A stretch of DNA of 64,000 nt from Verrucomicrobiia bacterium DG1235 (GTDB lineage: Bacteria; Verrucomicrobiota; Verrucomicrobiia; Opitutales; Opitutaceae). This document shows, one piece after another, positions 51,610 through 57,405 of the stretch; positions within the stretch are counted from its first letter, which is position 1, and each line of letters begins with the position of its first letter. Below the pieces are notes generated by a model. It did no database searches. It was not told the origin of the DNA and saw only the letters and a list, made by a program, of their open reading frames with translations. A program made the translations under genes and the position numbers. Location of the stretch: positions 1,002,784-1,066,783 of the forward strand of contig DS990592.1 of NCBI GenBank assembly GCA_000155695.1. The letters run 5' to 3'.

Positions 51610-52506
51610 TCAATTCCCGATCCGCAAACGTGTATACAAAGCTCGAATACATGCAGCTAACCTTTCATCCGTCGCGAAAACCACTCCCCTATGATTCATA
51701 AAAGTCGAATCGTTTCGATTCAGTTCGAGTGGTTTCCCAAACACATCACTCGCCACTCCACCAACTTCGCCATAGAGACAGGCAGTTGCCGCATAGTCCC
51801 ATAAACTCCCGCCACCCGCCTCAGGCTTAGGAAACTTAAAATAACACGCAGGCGCCGAATCCAAGGCCCAACACGCATTCATCACAGCGCCGCCATACAA
51901 GGTCGTTTCCACGCCACACAAACCGCGTTCCTCCGCAACCTTCTCCAGCTCGCAAATGATCTCCGAAAAGCAATTATATTTCTCCAAACTCCGATCACCA
52001 CAAAGCTTCAACTCACTACTGCCGGAAATAGTCTCAATTGACCGAAAAATAACTCCATTACGTCGAGCGCCTTTTCCCTTCACTGCGTCAAAGATAGCGC
52101 CGGCCACTGGATCGTGAACAACACCCACAAGCGCTTCACCCGACCGAGCAACCAGAGCGATAGAAACCGCGAAACCATCCCGCCCCTCAACGAACGGCAA
52201 AGTCCCATCAAGCGGATCAATACACCAAAAGTGATCCTTCAGAAGTCTCCCCCCATCGTCCGCGCCTTCCTCGGTCAAGACAGCCAAGTCAAACTTCACA
52301 ACGCTCTCGGCGAGCGTATCCAAAATAATAGCCTGCGCCTGCCGATCCACTTCCGTCACGACTTGCGACGCTTCCGAATCCCCGCCTACCTTTCGCTCCA
52401 TTTCCAAGGACTGCCCAACGCGCTTGGCGATGAAAGGGCCTGCCGCTTTCGCTGCCTCCAGAGCCTGATCTCGCAGTTCCTCCAAGTCCTCCACGGAAAG
52501 CCTCAT
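51610..52506 (-). CDS. Inositol-monophosphatase-family phosphatase
   Basis: 298 residues. The metal-binding motifs are [20 protein letters not shown] (DPLDGT core) and [19 protein letters not shown] (WDxxA). This family hydrolyses inositol phosphates, 3'-phosphoadenosine phosphates or fructose-1,6-bisphosphate; CysQ-like or IMPase-like roles cannot be told apart here. Its start overlaps the stop of the upstream phosphotransferase gene by 4 bases, so the two are translationally coupled. The pairing of a kinase with a phosphatase suggests a common phosphometabolite, but that is inference. Confidence 0.85.
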
Positions 52507-53480
52507 CGCGCCAAGCCCTCCAAAACCTCGCGAGCCAGTCGTTCACTGTAGCTATGCACCTTCCAGTGCCCTGGGCTCCACCCCTTCAGAAACCTGTGAA
52601 AATCCGTCCAGGCCACTGGATACAGCTTCCGCCACTCCCTTTCCAATTCCATAAAGTCCAACTCCTTCCCCATCCCGCCAAGCGCCGCTTCGAGGCTCTC
52701 GAAATAACGGTCCAACAGCTCCGCCTCGCGCCTTTCACATTCCGTATCATCCAAACAACTACCGATAAAATACGCCACGTCCTTCATGCCGCAGCCTCCG
52801 CCGACATACTGAAAATCCACCGCGGCCACACTGTCTCCAGTCTTAGCGAAACAGAAATTCGCCAGCTTCGCATCTCCATGTACGAAAGTCTTATATCTGC
52901 AAGCATCGAGCATCTCGTCTATCGCCGTCGCCGCCTCTTTCAGCGGCAAGTCATCCAAGACCTCAAGCTCGTCAGGACGTGTATCCAGATGCCAATACGT
53001 CCCCTTCTCCCAAAGGCCGACAGGGCTTTCTCCCATAAAGGTCGCGTGAAATCCCGCTAGCCACTTCAGGCAGGATCGCATTTCGGCCAGTGATGCTGAA
53101 GAACGCCTCCCGCCAAAGCCCGAAACATCCAAATCCTCCAAAGCGATAGCCACCTCATGTCCTTCCGCACCGGTCGCAAAGCAATGCGGCACACGACACG
53201 CCTCTCCACAACGATTGGCAAAACTCCGATACCAAGCCGTCTCTACCTCATAGGACCTAATCTTCCGTTCGTGCGACAAGTCAGTATTCCATCCGCGAGG
53301 ATGATCCGCATCCGTTGGAATCCGTACCAACTTCACAACTACAGAAGATAAATCCGCGCCCACAGGCTCGTAACGAGCGATCTTTCCATAGCCGCTCCAA
53401 AGACTCTGTATGGTCTCCCTCTCTACTAGGTCCGACGCCCCTAAGGCACCGCATATCAAATTTCTAAACCGCTCGTTCAT
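52503..53480 (-). CDS. Phosphotransferase of the APH/EcKinase-like superfamily
   Basis: 325 residues. The kinase-like fold shows [20 protein letters not shown], with the catalytic HGD-N signature, and [20 protein letters not shown] with the DFQ metal-binding motif. This pattern is close to ecdysteroid-kinase-like and aminoglycoside-phosphotransferase relatives, which phosphorylate small hydroxylated molecules. It is the first gene of a two-gene unit with an IMPase-family phosphatase. A hairpin stands 2 bases before its start codon. Substrate unknown. Confidence 0.8.
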
Positions 53481-54176: not shown

Positions 54177-55142
54177 TCAGCCTACCGTAAACGAATAGCT
54201 CGTCTCCCCGACAGCAAGATGCATCAACAGACTCCGTGTCTCCACCGGATGCCGCCCCAAATTGTATTTCAACCTTATCGTATCACCCTTTTTCACAGGC
54301 ACAGGCTTCATCGAAAAGTACGTCTGCATCCAATGCGTGGTCGGCTGCTCCGGCCCTGTATCCAAAATCACTGACGGCGTGAGCTCCGCCACAAACCAGC
54401 CAGCGAAACCATTCATCTCCCCATCGCGAAGGATTTCAAACTCCAGCTCGCCCGACTGCCAAACATCCTCCTTGCTCGCCTTCGCCAGATCCAGCTTCAC
54501 CAGCCCCTTGGGTTCCGCGATCAAGTCCTCCGATGGCACATGCGTCTTAATCGCAAGCGCCTGCTCCAGCTCTCGATCCTCCAGATGAGAAAAATCGATG
54601 CCATGCACCTCATCCTTCCAGAAGCCGGGGCCCTCGTATTCGTACAATACCGACGAATTCACTGGGGCCAACATCAGCTCCACACCCGAAGGCAACATCC
54701 TGCCACCTTCCTTCAAATTAGCGTCCCGACACTCAATCACGTCGTCTAGCATCGTCTCCGCGAATCCGAAATGCCCCAGCCACTCGCTCACGATCAAGTC
54801 GACCGGCTCCGCCACCTGAAAATCCACCGCGTTCGCGTTCAACACCTCGACCACGTCGCCCATTCCATTCTTCTCCACCGTCTCGCGAGCCGCCTCCGCG
54901 ACCGTCGACTGGTCGAGAGCGTACACCCGCTTCGCTCCCGCCTTGGCCGCCAACATCGCCAACAAGCCGGAGCCCGTGCCAACGTCGATCACCGTCTCGC
55001 CACCGGCGAGCGCCTCTTTTATCGCAGCCGCAAACGCATCCGTGCGCGGCTGATCCGATACCATTAAACGCTGCAGGCCTAGTTCGGCGTAGGAGTTGAA
55101 ATAGTAATCCACGGCAAGGATCTGCCCTTCGCTCTCCCTCAA
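54177..55142 (-). CDS. PRMT-like protein arginine N-methyltransferase
   Basis: About 321 residues. SAM-binding motif I VIDVGTGSGLLAMLAAKAGA, preceded by YYFNSYAELGLQRLMVSDQP that matches the PRMT N-terminal helix. The double-E loop SEWLGHFGFAETML and the THW loop TTHWMQTYF, both characteristic of arginine methyltransferases, are present, and the C-terminal beta-barrel ends ETRSLLMHLAVGETSYSF. PRMTs are mostly eukaryotic. The start is uncertain: I chose the TTG at 55142 because the frame has no ATG between the preceding stop and the YYFNSY motif; a GTG at 55112 is an alternative. It follows the Gly/Cys-rich protein gene by 19 bases. Arginine methylation is inferred; the substrate is unknown. 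Confidence 0.8.
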   Translation of the reverse strand: MRESEGQILAVDYYFNSYAELGLQRLMVSDQPRTDAFAAAIKEALAGGETVIDVGTGSGLLAMLAAKAGAKRVYALDQSTVAEAARETVEKNGMGDVVEVLNANAVDFQVAEPVDLIVSEWLGHFGFAETMLDDVIECRDANLKEGGRMLPSGVELMLAPVNSSVLYEYEGPGFWKDEVHGIDFSHLEDRELEQALAIKTHVPSEDLIAEPKGLVKLDLAKASKEDVWQSGELEFEILRDGEMNGFAGWFVAELTPSVILDTGPEQPTTHWMQTYFSMKPVPVKKGDTIRLKYNLGRHPVETRSLLMHLAVGETSYSFTVG

Positions 55143-55161: not shown

Positions 55162-55899
55162 TCAATCTCCGCCACAACCACCGCCGCAGCCCGAGCTGCA
55201 ACCACTGCTGCAACTAAATCCGCCCGAACACCCCGAGCCCCCTTTTCCGCCACCGCCTTTGCCCGCTCGAAACAGCCAGAAGAGAGCAATCACTCCGATC
55301 ACGATCCCTATCACCGCCTCTTTGCTAATGTTTCCATCTTCACCCACCAACTGCTCGCGACAACCAATCGCCAGCGCCCCCATGCCCAAGACTCCCAAAA
55401 CTGCCACACCGCGCTTGAGCCAAACCTTCGGCAGCACCAAAGACGTGCCCGTATCCTCTATCCCCCTACTCCTCCTCGGACTAAACCGCTCATCGATCCC
55501 CGGCCACACACCCGCCGGAGGGGCCTCGCCAAACTCTCGCCGATAGCTCCCCAAGGTTTCAGCGTACAAACCCCGAAAAACCTCGCCCTGCTCAGAACCA
55601 CCTTCCGTTGGAGTATGGTGAAGCGGGCGCTCTAACACCTTCCCGCAAAGCTCCTCCCAATACGATCTCGTATAGCACAAATGCAAATGCCAAGCCTCGT
55701 CTACCTCCTCCGATGGCGTTACCCGATGCCCTGCCACCATCGACAGATACAAAAATCGCTTGTATTCGAAAATTACCGACCGAGCAAACTCCACACTCCA
55801 ATTCTGATCCCGCGCCAGTCGCCGCGAGAAAGGAAGCGCCGCCCCCTCCACATCCAGTTCAAACGCGGACAAACGATTCCAAAGGTCCTGATCAGTCAT
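55162..55899 (-). CDS. Glycine-rich-domain membrane protein with Cys-rich tail
   Basis: 245 residues from the ATG at 55899 (a TTG at 55905 is an alternative). The N-terminal half contains VDEAWHLHLCYTRSYWEELC (about residues 67-86), the core of a family called glycine-rich-domain or TIGR04222-like. Two transmembrane segments follow, GVAVLGVLGMGALAIG and AVIGIVIGVIALFWLF. The last 30 residues are a low-complexity tail of Gly, Ser and Cys (GCSGGFSCSSGCSSGCGG) with five regularly spaced Cys. Function unknown. The PRMT-like gene starts 19 bases after the stop, so cotranscription is likely. Confidence 0.72.
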   Translation of the reverse strand: MTDQDLWNRLSAFELDVEGAALPFSRRLARDQNWSVEFARSVIFEYKRFLYLSMVAGHRVTPSEEVDEAWHLHLCYTRSYWEELCGKVLERPLHHTPTEGGSEQGEVFRGLYAETLGSYRREFGEAPPAGVWPGIDERFSPRRSRGIEDTGTSLVLPKVWLKRGVAVLGVLGMGALAIGCREQLVGEDGNISKEAVIGIVIGVIALFWLFRAGKGGGGKGGSGCSGGFSCSSGCSSGCGGGCGGD

Positions 55900-56109
55900 A
55901 AGCAATTGAGAGCTTTTCTAGAGGCAACTAAAGCTCCCCAACTCTGTCTCCTTACACCGCGGCGTGTCCAGCCTTTGCCCGAGCCATTAGATTCAGAAGA
56001 AGCCAACTCCAATCATTTCTTCACAAAAAACCGCAACCAGCTCCCATATCCCGTGTAGAGAGCAGGCTGTAAATAGCAGCATTCGAAGATTTCCTAAATC
56101 CAACTCCAT

Positions 56110-57405
56110 ATGCCTCTCCTCACTTGTTTAAAAATCCCGTCCCGCATCTCTCGCGCCGCGACTCTCGCTTTGGTCGCCTTAACGGCCACCTGCCTTCACG
56201 CCCAACGGCCAGACACCCCCCTCGGCTTCACCGAGTTCTACGAGCTCGAACCCATCCAGGTCACCGGCGAGGAGATTCCCATTACCATCTTCGCCCGCAG
56301 TTCAGGAGACAGGCGCTACGCCACCAAATTCGCCCACAACGTCGTCGAAGTCGCTTACGAAACCCTCGAAAAATCACCGGGCAGCGGACTGGTCATCATC
56401 GGTCAGTCAGGCGAGCCGCACCCCATCACCATCCTAGACCGATTTCTCGAAATCTCCCGATCCGACGAGTCCTCGACCGAAGTCAAGGCCCTCGCTGACG
56501 AGCTCGAAGAAGCCCTTTCCAATTGGAGGGACAAAATCCAATTCGATACCGGCGACGAAAATCAGGATGAAGACTTTCCGGTCGACATCGACTCGCTCAT
56601 CAACGCCTTCCCGATCCCGCTCCCTAAAATAGCCGCCGACATCTACCTACTCGCATGGCAGGAGGAATTCGAATTCGAGCGCGTCGAACAGCGCCTGACC
56701 CACCTCAGCTCCGCCGATCTGGAGAAAGAGGAATTTGAGGAATTCCAGTGGGTCTTCTACCTACCTCCGCGCAACGCCCTCAATAAAGTGCTCAAAGAAG
56801 TCCTGCCCGCCGTATTCAAAGCCGAAAAAATCGGCCCCATGAAACGCGTGCTCATTCGAGGAGCCATCGCAACCTTCAAGCCCCTCATCAAAGACGCCAT
56901 GGAAGGCGTGCGCAAAGGCGTTCTCTACTGGTCCGTCCTCTCGGCAAACCAAGAGGACTTTAACCAAGGCGACATCGAAGCATTGGCAGAAGCCTACTTC
57001 GAATCCCAAATGCCCCGCGGAAAAATCCTACCGGGAAACAAGAAAGAAAGAGCCCTCGACGCCATAAAAGCTCAAAAACTGGAAAACGAGGAATACGCCA
57101 AAGACCCATTCGTTCTCCACGAGCCTCTCGAACACTTCGATCCTCAAGCCTACGTACCCATGTGTGGAGCTTTCGGAGCCGAGGGTCACCGCGACAAGCG
57201 ATTCTTCCTAGAAAACGACCTTATTTACTGGCAGGAAGGCGACGACGATCCCGTCGAATACCTCCCAGCCGAGAACGACTTCTTCTCTTCCACGCGAAAA
57301 GATACGACTCTCCAATTCTTTGCCGATGCCAACGGCGAATTCAATAGCGTAGAGCTTCGCGTAGGCCGTCACCGCTTCGACTTCCACCGTTTGTCGGAAG
57401 AGTAA
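56110..57405 (+). CDS. Exported protein of unknown function
   Basis: 431 residues with a signal peptide (ATLALVALTATCLHAQ, about residues 17-32). No family was recognised. The N-terminal segment YELEPIQVTGEEIPITIFAR recalls the start of TonB-dependent receptor plugs, but no barrel follows. The middle is largely alpha-helical with acidic runs (ALADELEEALSNWRDK, LSSADLEKEEFEEFQW). The end (residues 350-431) is a beta-rich part with DLIYWQEGDDDPVEYLPAEN and LQFFADANGEFNSVELRV. Isolated gene with a short hairpin after it. Confidence 0.55.
   Translation: MPLLTCLKIPSRISRAATLALVALTATCLHAQRPDTPLGFTEFYELEPIQVTGEEIPITIFARSSGDRRYATKFAHNVVEVAYETLEKSPGSGLVIIGQSGEPHPITILDRFLEISRSDESSTEVKALADELEEALSNWRDKIQFDTGDENQDEDFPVDIDSLINAFPIPLPKIAADIYLLAWQEEFEFERVEQRLTHLSSADLEKEEFEEFQWVFYLPPRNALNKVLKEVLPAVFKAEKIGPMKRVLIRGAIATFKPLIKDAMEGVRKGVLYWSVLSANQEDFNQGDIEALAEAYFESQMPRGKILPGNKKERALDAIKAQKLENEEYAKDPFVLHEPLEHFDPQAYVPMCGAFGAEGHRDKRFFLENDLIYWQEGDDDPVEYLPAENDFFSSTRKDTTLQFFADANGEFNSVELRVGRHRFDFHRLSEE

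Follow-up and report, generated by a model that had tools for sequence, protein, structure and literature searches.

Sequence and predicted structure suggest that a PRMT-like protein of Pelagicoccus is a stand-alone, type I-like protein arginine methyltransferase

Introduction

Does a bacterial reading frame that carries the signatures of an arginine methyltransferase belong to the protein arginine methyltransferase (PRMT) family and, if so, what might its product methylate? The question is raised by a 64,000-nucleotide stretch of DNA from Verrucomicrobiia bacterium DG1235 (the whole of this stretch is called the window here). Methylation by PRMTs is described in reviews as widespread in eukaryotes (PMC12925635); for bacteria, PMC8466066 cites arginine methylation in E. 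coli as well as lysine and/or arginine methylation in mycobacteria. Our searches of the open-access literature found nothing that joins arginine methyltransferase with the names Planctomycetes and Verrucomicrobia, and on PRMTs or methylated arginine in bacteria they turned up a single paper, which concerns another protein. The gene analysed here encodes a known kind of enzyme, a PRMT, of which it is a new bacterial member, and such a protein bears on where the eukaryotic PRMTs came from. Our preferred reading, to which we assign a probability of roughly 0.62, is a type I-like protein arginine methyltransferase that works as a homodimer; we infer its activity, dimeric state, product type, substrates and role from the sequence and a predicted model.

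Gene model and family assignment

The host genome (5.8 Mb) belongs to the genus Pelagicoccus, Verrucomicrobiota. In it, the first-pass annotation had placed a PRMT-like arginine methyltransferase at 54177–55142 without stating the strand. This frame is indeed open over its full length, on the minus strand, but its start at TTG 55142 is replaced here by GTG 55112, 30 bases further in. The latter is most likely the true start because the ATG of the 311-residue ORFs of six relatives (L024, L026, L031, L032, L033 and L039), in each case their first start codon, falls exactly at the matching position. The gene so defined has 311 codons plus a stop, and residue numbers below are counted from GTG 55112. 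A search for promoter-like sites around it found none and is uninformative.

54177..55112, minus strand: PRMT-like methyltransferase gene (open frame, start from relatives, PRMT_C match, PRMT fold)

Profile searches place the protein among the PRMTs. The Pfam PRMT_C model matches with E = 2.7e-21 and a score of 76.7 bits (cut-off 27), while PRMT5_C falls just below its own cut-off; several generic SAM-domain models also match, and the PrmA model exceeds its cut-off over residues 40–154 only. None of the 25 NCBIfam matches listed, out of 51, passes its cut-off, and the prmA equivalog reaches 45.2 bits where 183.15 are required. Against the PDB, the best sequence match is PRMT6 (E = 1.5e-47), followed by PRMT2, PRMT1, PRMT3 and CARM1.

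The predicted fold points the same way. An AlphaFold2 model, built as a single chain from 11 sequences (pLDDT 88.0, pTM 0.88), recovered PRMTs exclusively among the 50 Foldseek matches listed, and VIA aligned it with Arabidopsis PRMT10 (Z 31.2, 278 residues, rmsd 2.3 Å) and PRMT6 (Z 31.0, 277 residues, rmsd 2.2 Å). The rmsd values to PRMTs depend on the superposition, being 10.9–12.2 Å in Foldseek's own and 2.1–2.7 Å with VIA. Over the 277–278 residues that superpose on solved PRMTs, the predicted model comprises both a Rossmann domain and a beta-barrel with a dimerisation arm. Structural modelling had been proposed as a check by the first-pass annotation, and the predicted model does superpose on solved PRMTs (Z about 31); the PRMT-like assignment is thus backed by sequence, predicted fold, motifs and phylogeny.

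Motifs and active site

The motif set of type I PRMTs has been laid out in PMC12925635 and also in PMC8623767 and PMC12153873. By comparison with these, seven published landmarks are present in the protein, in order; they are given below together with the presumed dimerisation arm.

55089..55103, minus strand: YFxxY motif, YFNSY, residues 4–8 (motif comparison)
54966..54992, minus strand: motif I, SAM binding, VIDVGTGSG, residues 41–49, consensus VxDVGxGxG (motif comparison)
54912..54926, minus strand: motif post-I, VYALD, residues 63–67, with acidic residue Asp67, consensus V/I-x-G/A-x-D/E (motif comparison)
54792..54803, minus strand: motif II, VDLI, residues 104–107, consensus E/K/VDII with one I replaced by L (motif comparison)
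54750..54788, minus strand: double-E loop, SEWLGHFGFAETM, residues 109–121, with Glu110 and Glu119 (motif comparison)
54690..54716, minus strand: motif III, LKEGGRMLP, residues 133–141, consensus LKxxGxxxP (motif comparison)
54567..54632, minus strand: presumed dimerisation arm, about residues 161–182, extent approximate (inferred from sequence alignment with the PRMT6 arm region)
54324..54338, minus strand: THW loop, THWMQ, residues 259–263, consensus THWxQ (motif comparison)

The double-E loop, the THW loop and the motif I SAM site had all been reported in the first-pass annotation, and each is found where expected: Glu110 and Glu119 lie in SEWLGHFGFAETM, THWMQ occupies residues 259–263 and VIDVGTGSG residues 41–49. 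Departures from consensus are confined to three hydrophobic positions, one in motif II and two in the double-E loop, where SEWLGHFGFAETM differs from the strict SExMGxxLxxExM by M to L and L to G with both glutamates in place. None of 200,000 shuffles of the protein reproduced the core signature, in which YFxxY, DxGxGxG, double-E and THW follow one another in this order.

Conservation of these residues was surveyed in 66 sequences, namely the protein itself and 65 distinct relatives, including the paralogue of the same genome; the relatives were picked by similarity to the protein, so the counts are biased upward, and they come from fetched loci only, such that weaker matches from phyla other than Verrucomicrobiota are under-represented. 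Three records of one gene with an in-frame stop (L005, L022 and L027) and one partial sequence (L053) were left out. Asp20 and Arg23 are present in all 66 sequences, Glu110 in 62 and Glu119 in 57, with Asp at the latter position in eight. At the post-I acidic position, Asp (38/66) and Glu (28/66) are both common, and yeast Hmt1 likewise has Asp there. Of the 66 sequences, 61 keep His260 and 65 keep Trp261, and in the arm region Trp165, Gly171 and Asp173 are found in 52, 61 and 62, respectively. Both double-E glutamates co-occur with THW in 37/66 sequences, and all three elements are invariant across the 11 rows of alignment A2, which include the protein itself. Met17 and Met121, which we take to be the equivalents of Met48 and Met155 of PRMT1, are present in 61 and 51 of the 66.

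Among PRMTs, YFxxY is the type I form of its motif and PLxxN the type II form (PMC12925635). The combination of YFxxY (rather than PLxxN), THW, Met17 and Met121 points to type I chemistry.

Phylogeny

The main tree comprised 66 rows, 61 of them bacterial (the PRMT-like protein included) and five eukaryotic. Five sequences were dropped from it (L052, L080, L081, L100 and L103), its CARM1 row lacks the stretch preceding motif I, and PRMT5, PRMT7 and PRMT9 are absent from both this tree and the SAM-domain tree described below. The eukaryotic rows group together as a single clade (100/99). The protein lies outside it, in a bacterial clade with 12 members (100/99) that grows to 14 with two more rows (100/98); the deeper branching order is largely unresolved.

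In the tree of SAM domains, all PRMT-like rows, eukaryotic ones included, separate from eight PrmA rows (100/100). Thus, the position inside another methyltransferase family that had been named at the outset as telling against a PRMT assignment was not observed in a comparison with PrmA alone. With PrmA as the root, the eukaryotic clade and the protein's own clade both fall inside a group of 24 rows (99/98), leaving three bacterial rows outside. These trees disagree on L086, L072 and L074, which stand near the protein's own group in the main tree (93/81) and are placed outermost of all PRMT-like sequences in the tree rooted on PrmA, which is the shorter, and we draw no conclusion on the root of the PRMT-like tree. 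An AU test in which the protein and PrmA were constrained to one side of a branch did not reject that arrangement (p 0.0565); the result says little, because the constraint only makes the protein the first branch among the PRMT-like rows.

Distribution and genomic context

Here, ‘group A’ denotes the gene's own group and ‘group B’ its relatives in other genera of the same family or order. Group A is present in seven of eight Pelagicoccus genomes, the eighth (G005) having no PRMT_C match. In Pelagicoccus sp. SDUM812002 (G003), codon 77 of the group A gene (L027 6001–6936, also represented by L005 and L022) is an in-frame stop, which reflects either a pseudogene or a sequencing error. The group A gene appears dispensable, because one copy in the genus has this stop and one genome of the eight has no PRMT_C match.

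Beyond the genus, relatives were counted at E ≤ 1e-15, and these are mostly near full length. A match occurs in 14 of 288 Verrucomicrobiota genomes (our own count from the rows listed) and in 12/223 genomes of the host's order; in the phylum of a Planctomycetota MAG, the figure is 27/246. The phylum of a Pseudomonadota-labelled MAG yields 52/282, with G773, G914 and G877 among the genomes that have partial matches only, and a sample centred on a Polyangiaceae MAG yields 36/188; the last two counts overlap and are not additive, as 35 of the 36 also belong to the set of 52. From these 35 shared genomes, the phylum of the larger set is probably Myxococcota. PRMT_C was found in none of 14 control genomes. 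The first-pass description of such signatures as rare in bacteria is therefore fair but not extreme, at 5 to 18% of sampled genomes in three phyla. A mobile origin was considered and rejected: there was no phage match and no relative in viral contigs, and six plasmid records matched at 23–34% identity.

The surroundings of the gene are conserved within the genus. Homologues of 56110..57405, EcKL, IMPase and BipA lie near it in five of the six other Pelagicoccus loci (L024 being the exception); none of these neighbours was found in the loci outside Pelagicoccus, some of which span just 3–7 kb. In the loci from outside the genus, the sole match to any neighbour is to a generic histidine kinase in L036, and, a kinase-type match aside, the PRMT is the only gene that these loci have in common. 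No biosynthetic cluster was seen around the gene in the loci compared, which is still compatible with a small-molecule substrate. The PRMT-like gene looks like a stand-alone gene.

Some of the adjoining genes have features of their own. Directly upstream, on the minus strand, 55162..55905 encodes a 247-residue protein with a very Gly/Cys/Ser-rich C-terminus that matches neither Pfam nor NCBIfam models at E 0.1; this protein was considered as an operon partner and rejected, since a homologue occurs in just two of the six other Pelagicoccus loci (L020 and L025), on the opposite side of the gene. On the same strand, 52503..53480 is an EcKL/APH-type kinase-like gene adjoining an IMPase-like gene. 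In a Polyangiaceae MAG, the group A gene has a divergent neighbour (L034 1–1415, minus strand) whose lysine-rich product contains histone H1-like repeats.

Proposed mechanism and alternatives

In our preferred reading, the protein would be a minimal PRMT core, in which the SAM-binding Rossmann domain precedes a beta-barrel that bears the dimerisation arm, and it would most likely work as a homodimer. SAM would be bound at motif I and Asp67, the guanidinium group of the substrate would be gripped by Glu110 and Glu119, and the YFNSY helix would close the pocket together with the THW loop. A methyl group would then pass to a terminal guanidino nitrogen, giving monomethylarginine and, by type I chemistry, presumably asymmetric dimethylarginine. 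The arginines of flexible Gly/Arg-rich protein segments are the likely targets. The roles given to the motifs in this scheme follow PMC8623767.

The PRMT fold by itself is silent on the substrate, and the main alternative is a small-molecule guanidine methyltransferase built on this fold and acting, as SznE does, on free arginine or agmatine. There is precedent in bacteria, as the streptozotocin cluster contains the arginine methyltransferase SznE, and a relative with 31% identity is tied to another antibiotic cluster (PMC12637814). Against such a role, albeit indirectly, speak the wide retention of the gene in Pelagicoccus (7/8), the lack of a biosynthetic cluster and the lack, in the loci compared, of any neighbour common outside the genus save the generic kinase; we consider it unlikely. 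We give still less credence to a PRMT-fold methyltransferase whose acceptor has changed by drift, or one that has lost catalysis and taken up another role. Changes of this kind would fit the variation of the site among bacterial relatives, where Trp111 is replaced by Gln, Thr or Cys in many and THW by PHW in 16/66, as well as the paralogue without THW in the host genome and the in-frame stop in one Pelagicoccus copy. However, the PRMT-like protein itself keeps all the active-site residues examined, and the other ten rows of A2 also keep both glutamates and THW.

Candidate substrates

If the protein is, as we favour, a protein arginine methyltransferase, RGG segments are likely targets; RGG/RG motifs are enriched among the substrates of PRMT1, 3, 6 and 8 (PMC12153873). 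The host genome encodes two RRM RNA-binding proteins whose Gly/Arg-rich tails hold three and eight RGG, and these are its best candidate substrates. RRM matches occur in 51 of 57 related genomes; the maximum number of RGG per genome in RRM proteins is 5–8 in the eight genomes with group A against 0–7 in the other 43 (Mann–Whitney p 1.5e-5), an association confounded by relatedness, as seven of the eight belong to one genus. Counted by genus, at least five RGG are reached in 2/2 genera with group A and in 6/42 others (Fisher p 0.03), with G005 left out; this Pelagicoccus genome is a counter-example, having six RGG and no PRMT_C match. The association of RGG tails with group A should be read as a lead and does not show that methylation occurs.

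Other searches for RGG carriers yielded little. Genome-wide, the pattern RGGxRGG was not enriched (21 matches against 17 in a reversed control), and of the 15 matches with loci one was, by eye, in a real coding frame (DnaJ, L109); the pattern missed both RRM proteins, whose RGG spacing is different. Helicase-domain proteins showed no RGG-repeat tail in the 25 of 28 matches examined, with at most one RGG each. One helicase-domain protein of the host genome (L126) has a long Arg/Pro/Ser-rich C-terminal tail, a possible target of arginine methylation.

It is conceivable, although we think it somewhat doubtful, that the RRM proteins and the PRMT-like protein make up a bacterial writer–substrate pair resembling PRMT1 and its RGG targets, in which dimethylation of the RGG tails would tune RNA binding or condensation and whose clade would be no younger than the eukaryotic type I enzymes. 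Compact, retained by most genomes of a marine genus that can be cultured, and accompanied in its genome by RGG-tailed RNA-binding proteins, this homologue offers a simple test bed for bacterial RGG methylation.

Comparison with known systems

PrmA, the ribosomal protein L11 methyltransferase, has only the SAM domain in common with the PRMT-like protein; it lacks the PRMT beta-barrel and forms a separate clade (100/100). SznE, a cluster-borne relative of PRMTs that acts on free arginine, is compared with the protein here by description. As is proposed for the protein, it is a bacterial arginine methyltransferase (PMC12637814).

Nearer relatives include a second PRMT-like gene in the host genome itself (L002/L018, G000:C6:2199314-2200141). 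Its 474-aa product resembles the PRMT-like protein in scoring above the PRMT_C cut-off and in having both glutamates, but differs in its GENLGS stretch, its lack of THW, its C-terminal extension and a PRMT5_C match above cut-off. Group B members (e.g. L015 and L082) are about 29–34% identical over most of their length and likewise have both double-E glutamates, but they show HEQMGD where the protein has SEWLGH, carry PHW instead of THW, and form a separate clade. Other architectures also occur among the relatives. In L035 (1–453), the PRMT core is preceded by an additional N-terminal segment in which Pfam found no domain at E 1e-5 and which, by eye, looks like a small domain of the PqqD-like or winged-helix kind; L052 (487–2588) encodes a 700-residue relative with what appear by eye to be two tandem PRMT-like halves, Pfam PRMT_C matching the second.

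The closest parallels among known enzymes are the cores of the eukaryotic type I PRMTs (PRMT6, PRMT2, PRMT3, PRMT1/Hmt1, CARM1 and Arabidopsis PRMT10), with which the protein shares the motifs, their order and the predicted fold over 277–278 of 311 residues, at 26–35% identity in structural alignments. It differs from them in having GLQRLM where the eukaryotic sequences compared show an IHEEM-type stretch, and in being a stand-alone protein of 311 residues, without any extra domain, that belongs to a clade separate from the five eukaryotic sequences used.
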